A stretch of DNA of 48,453 nucleotides from a bacterium. GTDB lineage: Bacteria > Patescibacteriota > Minisyncoccia > Phycocordibacterales > UBA9973. The stretch lies in contig JAKAKW010000007.1 of NCBI GenBank assembly GCA_021824345.1, forward strand, positions 1 through 48,453, written 5' to 3'. A model generated the notes under the pieces. That model was not told the DNA's origin, searched no databases, and saw only the letters and a program-made list of their open reading frames with translations. The translations under genes and the position numbers were made by a program. Shown in pieces: positions 6,381 to 47,934 of the stretch; position 1 is the stretch's first letter; every line of letters begins with the position of its first letter.

Positions 6381-8261
6381 ATGAAAGTATCATACGACTG
6401 GCTAAAATGGTATGTGCCCAAAATTCCGACGCCGGAAGAGCTGGCGGATGTTTTTACCTATCATCTTTGCGAAGTGGAGGGAATTGAAAAAATCGGTTCT
6501 GGAAAAGATGCCGATACCGTATTTGACGTCAACATCCTGCCGAATCGGGCGCACGACCTTCTCTCTCATATGGGAGTGGGAAAGGAAATTTCTTCGCTTC
6601 TGGGTATCAAATATAACGATCCCGCGCCGGCTTACAAGATTCCGGAAAGCTTCCCAACCAAGCTTGAGATAAAGATTGATACGGACAAGTGCAGAAGATA
6701 TATGGGCAGGATTGTCCGTAATGTGAAAGTCGGCCCTTCTCCCGAGTGGGTGGTAAAACATTTGGAAGCCATCGGCCAGCGCTCCATAAACAACATCGTG
6801 GATGCGGCCAACATTGTGATGTACGACTCTGGCCAGCCAGTGCACGCTTTTGATCTTGGAAAACTGGCCGGGGAAAAAATCATAATCCGCCAGGCGAAAG
6901 AAGGGGAGGCTATGACCACCCTGGACGACAAAGAAGTGAAATTTACCGGAAAAGATATGGTTATTGCGGACGACGCCCGCGTGCTGGCCGTTGCCGGAGT
7001 GAAAGGGGGTAAGGACAGCGGAGTGACGGAGGAAACGGAGAATATCGTGCTGGAAGTGGCCAATTTCAATCCGACCAGCGTGCGCAAGACCGCCCAGTCC
7101 ATGAACCTGTTTACCGACGCGCGCAAGCGGTTTGAGAACGACCTGTCGCCGGAGCTTGGATCATACGCCATGCGCGAACTTTCCGCGCTGATTTTGGAAA
7201 TGTGTCCGGAAGCGCAGTTCGAGGAAATCGCGGATATTTATCCGCAAAAGCAGAAAGAGCGTTCCGTTTCTTTTTCCGCGAAGAGAATTTCTGAGATTCT
7301 CGGCCTGGAGGTTTCAGCCGATGAAATTGAAAAAATTCTGGAAAGATACGATTTTTCATACGAAAAAAGCGGAGGAACTTTCAATATGAAAGTTCCTCCG
7401 CTCCGTCTGGATTTGGAAAACGAAGAAGATATGGCCGAGGAAATCGGCCGGATTCTGGGATACGACAAAGTGAAGCCGAGAATTCCGAAAATAAGTTTCA
7501 AGCCGAGGCCGAATGAAAATTATCGCAAAATCCGCTGGGCCAGGGAAAAACTCCTTTCCGAAGGATATTCGGAAGTGATGACGTACATCTTCGCCGAAAA
7601 AGGGGAAGTGGAAGTGCTGGAGAGCGCCTCAGACAAGAAATTCATGCGGACAAATCTTTCCGACGGGCTCAAAGCGAGCGCTGAATTGAATCAGCTGAAC
7701 ACGCCATTCCTTGAACTGGACAAAGCGATGGTTTTTGAAATAGGAACAGTATTTGGCGGGAGCGGAGAAGTGATCCACGTGGCTTACGGAGACAAGAAAA
7801 AGATAACTGAAACGACTTTGGAAGAGTTCTGCGCAGGGTTGCCGGCAGAATTTTCGGCATGGTCTGGCCGAGCTTCCAGTTCTGGAAGAGCGACTTTAGG
7901 CGAGGGGCTGAAACCTGCCGGGTGTCAGATTTCAGAAGGACCTGCTGAAAATTCTGCCGGCAACCCTGCGCACTTCAAGATGTGGTCTCTTTATCCATTT
8001 ATTTCCCGAGACATCGCCGTGTGGATGCCTGAGGAGGATGACCCAAAGAAACTTTTTGAACTACTAAAAGAAAACGGCACGGAACTTCTAACAAAAAAGC
8101 CGTATCTGTTTGATTCATTTTCCAAAGATGGCCGAAAGTCCTATGCATACAGGCTTGTTTTTCAATCCTATGACCGCACCCTGACCGACGAGGAGGTGAA
8201 CTCCGTAATGGAAAAAATCACCGCTAAAATTGGCGAAAACAAGAATTGGCAGATAAGATAA
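6381..8261 (+). CDS. pheT: Phenylalanine--tRNA ligase beta subunit (short, no EMAP-like domain)
   Basis: MKVSYDWLKWYVPK, NRAHDLLSHMGVGKEI, GQPVHAFDLGKL, and C-terminal YPFISRDIAVW anticodon-binding-like fold. Confidence 0.93.
   Translation: MKVSYDWLKWYVPKIPTPEELADVFTYHLCEVEGIEKIGSGKDADTVFDVNILPNRAHDLLSHMGVGKEISSLLGIKYNDPAPAYKIPESFPTKLEIKIDTDKCRRYMGRIVRNVKVGPSPEWVVKHLEAIGQRSINNIVDAANIVMYDSGQPVHAFDLGKLAGEKIIIRQAKEGEAMTTLDDKEVKFTGKDMVIADDARVLAVAGVKGGKDSGVTEETENIVLEVANFNPTSVRKTAQSMNLFTDARKRFENDLSPELGSYAMRELSALILEMCPEAQFEEIADIYPQKQKERSVSFSAKRISEILGLEVSADEIEKILERYDFSYEKSGGTFNMKVPPLRLDLENEEDMAEEIGRILGYDKVKPRIPKISFKPRPNENYRKIRWAREKLLSEGYSEVMTYIFAEKGEVEVLESASDKKFMRTNLSDGLKASAELNQLNTPFLELDKAMVFEIGTVFGGSGEVIHVAYGDKKKITETTLEEFCAGLPAEFSAWSGRASSSGRATLGEGLKPAGCQISEGPAENSAGNPAHFKMWSLYPFISRDIAVWMPEEDDPKKLFELLKENGTELLTKKPYLFDSFSKDGRKSYAYRLVFQSYDRTLTDEEVNSVMEKITAKIGENKNWQIR
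7368..7402. repeat. Perfect 15-bp hairpin (5-nt loop) inside pheT
   Basis: agcggaggaactttc-aatat-gaaagttcctccgct. Confidence 0.95.
7830..7972. repeat. In-frame palindromic insert in pheT with 26-bp perfect terminal inverted repeats
   Basis: tgcgcagggttgccggcagaattttc (7830-7855) is the exact reverse complement of 7947-7972. Internal hairpins include cttcca-gttc-tggaag and ctgaaa/tttcag. Confidence 0.93.
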
Positions 8262-8301
8262 TCCGACCTTGTTTTATATGCCTAAAATGCCCAAAATGCG
8301 C

Positions 8302-15076: not shown

Positions 15077-15113
15077 CCGTCTGGGACGGAGGGTGGCCCT
15101 CCGCCCCAGACGG
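15077..15113. repeat. CGGAGGG palindrome family, copy A (rnc-smc intergenic)
   Basis: ccgtctggg-a-cggaggg-tgg-ccctccg-c-cccagacgg. Confidence 0.93.
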
Positions 15114-17373: not shown

Positions 17374-17488
17374 AGGCGGAAAGGATGTTCTCTTTTCCGG
17401 GTACGGGATTTTTTCTGCTGAAAAAATCCCTGAAGTTCTCGCGCCGCCGCGCTCGAAACCCCCTCCAAATAGAACATCCTTTCCGCCT
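17374..17488. repeat. Composite palindromic element between convergent smc and S11-CapA genes
   Basis: 18-bp perfect outer inverted repeat aggcggaaaggatgttct/agaacatcctttccgcct, plus inner hairpin gggattttttc-tgct-gaaaaaatccc (17405-17430). Confidence 0.92.
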
Positions 17489-31378: not shown

Positions 31379-31396
31379 TTCTTTCCCCGGACCGAT

Positions 31397-31422
31397 AGGG
31401 CGGAGGGTTACCCTCCGCCCTA
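31397..31422. repeat. CGGAGGG palindrome family, copy B (rpoC-dnaG intergenic)
   Basis: tagggcggaggg-tta-ccctccgcccta, followed by gacg. Confidence 0.93.
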
Positions 31423-43205: not shown

Positions 43206-45515
<2,310 letters not shown>

Positions 45516-47899: not shown

Positions 47900-47934
47900 G
47901 GGGCAGGGCGGAGGGTTACCCTCCGCCCTGCCCC
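47900..47934. repeat. CGGAGGG palindrome family, copy E (downstream of rnpB)
   Basis: ggggcagggcggaggg-tta-ccctccgccctgcccc, 16-bp perfect stem. Confidence 0.95.

Follow-up and report, generated by a model that had tools for sequence, protein, structure and literature searches.

REP/BIME sequences with their RAYT (Y1) transposases are short palindromes acting as single-stranded hairpins, and MITEs have ends that are their conserved part and match a transposase. Copies of Rickettsia palindromic elements (RPE) are alike along the whole element, arms included. RPE are palindromes of about 150 nt, present as several families per genome and often inserted in frame in unrelated housekeeping genes of reduced genomes (PMC10969869, PMC2694212), and they are reported to lose arm identity over time (PMC6649704). 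In the mitochondria of Nematomorpha, inverted repeats lie in protein-coding genes and their arms evolve in concert, for which template switching has been proposed (PMC6649704).

The window analysed here is a 48,453-nt stretch of bacterial DNA. Its top stem in a stem scan (score 27) is a palindrome in pheT, and no stem scoring 13 or more was found in three codon-shuffled windows. A sequence-only reading had claimed here a 143-nt palindrome, inserted in frame just ahead of the conserved YPFISRDIA block with perfect 26-nt arms. The palindrome is borne out by an inverted-repeat call, with 30-nt arms (7830-7859 / 7943-7972) that are 97% complementary and 83 nt apart, by a frame that stays open with no stop across the insert, and by a very stable fold, as the 143 nt reach -90.1 kcal/mol compared with -51.3 ± 3.9 for shuffled sequences (z = -9.9; 0/200 shuffles). 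The outer 26 nt of the arms are indeed perfect, but the arms extend to 30 nt with one mismatch coming next. The insert peptide takes up residues ~484-531, just ahead of the FDX-ACB domain, which begins at residue 536 and runs to 626 (Pfam). An AlphaFold model of PheT made with 8 sequences leaves insert residues 490-539 unstructured, but the model is poor (pLDDT 53.6) and is given little weight. The Rfam 15 covariance models gave zero matches up to E = 1 across 7500-8300. A second, small hairpin in pheT belongs to a set of near-perfect ones (7368-7402, 15077-15113, 31396-31422, 43867-43910, 47900-47934) that mostly have common GGCGGAGGGT/ACCCTCCGCC-like arms and are perhaps a further short repeat family.

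Coordinates of the palindromic elements in the window and of the pheT host gene
Feature	Position	Strand	Description
pheT host gene	6381..8261	+	Phe-tRNA ligase beta subunit, 626 aa; B3_4, B5, FDX-ACB domains
Left arm, pheT copy	7830..7858 (inverted-repeat call to 7859)	+	copy-specific; pairs with right arm
Family A core, pheT copy	7859..7943	+	conserved; GA strand on +; ATGGTCTGGCCGAG ... GGCGAGGGG ... GAAGGACCT
Extra ~22 nt in pheT core	7908..7935 (approximate bounds)	+	missing from sister copies; from alignment
Right arm, pheT copy	7944..7972 (inverted-repeat call from 7943)	+	complementary to left arm
Family B element	17374..17488	+	intergenic; 22-nt arms; core also at 8 other own-genome loci
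Family C element	44808..44952	+	in frame, Tgt-like gene (503-aa frame); 23-nt arms; core at 6 other loci

The pheT insert is foreign to PheT, being neither native sequence nor a singleton. Relatives differ at the site, which is not ordinary conserved PheT sequence, although every relative read has some linker insert and none is bare. Homologous copies are present elsewhere in the same genome, as found by a genome search, by a sequence pattern and by R1, a covariance model based on five copies. This family, termed A, has 6 clear and 1-2 weaker copies by the pattern and R1, a lower bound like all own-genome counts here since they come from sequence searches, and its sites are ileS, uvrC, ligA and pheT, all in frame, and two intergenic ones. 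The pheT core was aligned with 5 other own-genome copies and matches R1 at E = 2.8e-8, its length being 85 nt compared with 61-63 nt in the sister copies. The left arm of the pheT copy has no counterpart at other family A copies. The multi-copy element proposed earlier thus exists, but the part in common is the core, with the arms excluded.

Instead of the single element implied by the sequence-only reading, at least three palindromic families occupy the genome, family B with 9 and family C with 7 own-genome copies. Over 69-77 nt, several family B cores match one another at about 97%, and every copy has its own arms, suggesting that the arms were not amplified with the cores unless only the cores were homogenised later. 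The family B core is also found in the pheT inserts of three relatives. As with RPE, palindromic inserts of 100-150 nt lie here in frame in open reading frames, and homologous copies are scattered through a single genome, both in spacers and in genes unrelated to one another.

Family A is concentrated in one genus. Of 100 relatives, 37 gave R1 matches, with 1-13 copies each, and almost all of these 37 are congeneric; about 36 of the 60 same-genus genomes carry the family and ~24 have no R1 match. In a phylum-wide sample, 4 of 287 genomes matched, own genome counted, and a search of 84,980 species genomes with the exact core pattern gave 40 matches, all in MAGs, those with names being Nomurabacteria/Patescibacteria. 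Viral contigs gave none, and spread by viruses was set aside on this ground. No report of such elements in Patescibacteria was found among open-licence papers, making family A, as far as searchable, a previously unreported family of palindromic insertions. Our main reading, with a probability of roughly 0.6, is that the pheT insert is a copy of a small non-coding mobile palindromic DNA family that has spread through one Nomurabacteria-type genus. One locus (L014, G000:C3:79234) is a solo half of family A, with an arm and the 5′ core and the second half missing.

The 97 copies collected across 33 genomes include about 56 in-frame insertions within long open reading frames, with CT as the sense strand in 40 and GA in 16. 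The hosts confirmed with Pfam are PheT, UvrC, an IleS-type synthetase, LigA, a UvrD-type helicase, a KsgA-type methylase, DNA polymerase I, UvrB, a class-V aminotransferase and a CCA-adding-type enzyme, and the hosts PheS, Tgt, GatA and RecJ were assigned from sequence motifs only. Because coding copies use several frames and both orientations, the insert peptide is not a conserved feature. Outside the genus, L296 and L297 are again in frame, L297 in an IleS-like frame, and the PolA insertion site of L296 looks like that of L039. In L024, the ileS frame contains a histidine-phosphatase domain as well (PF00300, residues 550-710), either nested in the synthetase or fused to it. Intergenic copies often fill short spacers and stand a few nucleotides from either gene.

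The LigA linker allows filled and uninserted forms to be compared. It is short and uninserted, with no palindrome, in G010, G022, G023 and G005, is filled by family A in several genomes, with an opposite-orientation copy in G008, and holds quite different palindromes in others. The pheT linker, likewise, is a hotspot for several palindromic families among relatives. Across congeners, the LigA (L189-L218) and PheT (L099-L128) linkers were seen to contain several unrelated palindromic or direct-repeat inserts, and pheT of six genomes has CTAGAACCTAGAAGCTATAACCTAG-like units in the linker. Nearest relatives are only 60-80% alike in DNA, too diverged to provide clean empty sites with legible junctions or target-site duplications. 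Reading their sites as empty was rejected: the flanks align, but between them lie short hairpins of other kinds, terminators or linker sequence that has diverged.

The arms are copy-specific, of fixed length and co-varying. Over 75 copies, arm positions are 60-80% complementary up to nt 25-26 and fall to chance by nt 28, and nt 15-26 have nearly zero sequence conservation despite their complementarity. Distal arms score 10.9 on average when paired with their own partner vs -1.6 when re-paired, exceeding all 200 re-pairings. Comparison of the LigA site across seven species shows that both sides have changed in 14 of 24 arm pairs with 95.8% of cells still paired, the changes being 32 double vs 4 single, and an intergenic site in four species displays the same double-sided pattern. 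Few wobble intermediates are found, and from this scarcity we infer that the co-variation is due to templated correction, since step-wise compensation under selection would leave more wobbles; the concerted arms of nematomorph coding palindromes are the precedent. Some arm sets occur at more than one locus, namely the 'SPDAF' arms of coding copies and the arms of all three G063 copies, suggesting either that arms can sometimes travel with the element or that these loci share a site preference. Those three copies (L075-L077) come from another family of the order and have identical ~22-nt arms, unlike the window's genus.

The earlier likening to RPE holds in part. The elements here work like RPE but, in our analysis, should not be filed as RPE, as membership or homology is unsupported; compared with RPE by description, the arms here are private and co-evolving around a conserved core rather than decaying, and the phylum is another one. 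In LigA, one and the same site keeps its copies in several species, and their core remains conserved; a decaying selfish element would not behave in this way unless the copies are converted or functional. The coding palindromes of nematomorphs are similar in that their arms change in concert inside protein-coding genes. To our knowledge these mitochondrial palindromes have no conserved multi-copy core, whereas the dispersed families described here are defined by one.

The element shows a strand asymmetry. On the GA strand the consensus of the core comprises a GGUCU/GGACC stem, a GG/CC step and a CC-GA-GC/GC-GA-GG tandem G.A motif. Distal-arm mismatches on this strand are G.T or purine-purine in 62 cases vs 23 after de-duplication (p = 3e-5, an optimistic value since copies are related), and the trend extends to genes in which the opposite strand is the mRNA. 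This points to a folded GA DNA strand, or an RNA from the GA strand, rather than host mRNA, and host mRNA structure was rejected as the selected feature because the mismatches that remain show no preference for the mRNA strand. The same observation, together with the occurrence of both orientations and the lack of an Rfam match, makes it highly improbable that the element acts at the mRNA level, being excised from the transcript or bypassed by ribosomes (intron- or byp-like); the hairpin would be very stable in mRNA, but all coding copies preserve an open frame, a feature that neither bypassing nor splicing would require.

The core type of family A is genome-specific, with 131 same-type pairs vs 82 expected (0/10,000 shuffles). 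Carriers of the 'GAG' type do not make one clade in a PheT tree, and vertical inheritance alone was rejected for this type. The genome-specific type could result from conversion, from re-homing or from a co-evolving factor. A structured element under selection at each site, such as a protein-binding DNA hairpin in chromosome organisation, replication or repair, is favoured by a core type that shifts genome-wide as though tracking a trans factor, by the preserved structure of one strand, by the snug fit in short spacers, and by cores that stay conserved at orthologous sites where the arms drift in concert. We nevertheless consider such a non-parasitic function quite unlikely, as the family is patchy among congeners (the ~24 of 60 without match), LigA has uninserted forms, several unrelated families occupy the same linkers, and double changes far exceed one-sided ones, favouring templated correction over step-wise selection.

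The arms may arise by inverted target duplication, from pre-existing hairpins or by drift from an ancestral arm, given that some sets such as 'SPDAF' occur at several loci. If only the core were mobile, entering or replacing the loop of existing palindromes, the arms would be old local hairpins. Such core swapping would fit arms that are private although cores are nearly identical, LigA and PheT linkers in which the hairpin core differs from genome to genome, the abundance of small hairpins in the own genome, and LigA proximal arms that are common to genomes whose core types differ while core type follows genome. It seems unlikely to us all the same, as the uninserted LigA linkers are free of palindromes, and a common arm end at ~25 nt is unexpected for arbitrary pre-existing hairpins. 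A tentative and somewhat doubtful alternative is that the core enters a site, where it produces or picks up as its arms an inverted copy of local sequence with a fixed length of ~25 nt, and then keeps the symmetry; we know of no described transposon family that inserts with inverted target duplication.

Returning to the mobile palindromic family, a family A element consists of a conserved 40-63-nt core and two ~25-nt arms. The core would form an irregular one-strand DNA hairpin, possibly a single-stranded intermediate of movement, and is probably recognised by a putative trans-acting mobilising factor. The arms are locus-specific and would not be faithfully carried, their complementarity probably being kept by hairpin-templated (template-switch) correction, so that the corrected arms may drift in concert. 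The copies that persist are mostly found in short spacers between genes and within protein linkers encoded by housekeeping genes, where an in-frame insert may be translated as ~35-48 extra residues that would be tolerated.

No mobilising gene was found for family A. Y1 genes are present in most genomes of the genus, but are missing from two copy-rich ones, G021 and the own genome with its 6-8 copies, and none of 20 Y1 loci examined has a family A core, leading us to reject a Y1/RAYT transposase as partner. Unlike REP/RAYT, the own genome thus lacks Y1 (PF01797) and many copies are intragenic. The elements resemble MITEs in being small, non-coding and dispersed with terminal inverted repeats, but the ends are the variable part here, with almost no sequence information at distal arm positions.

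In-frame palindromic insertions have so far been a peculiarity of Rickettsiales, and they are found here in a far-removed reduced lineage. They hit essential genes of repair and translation, and their sites are re-used by several families. With many congeneric genomes available, the movement of the element, the upkeep of arm complementarity and the reshaping of proteins by insert peptides become testable questions.
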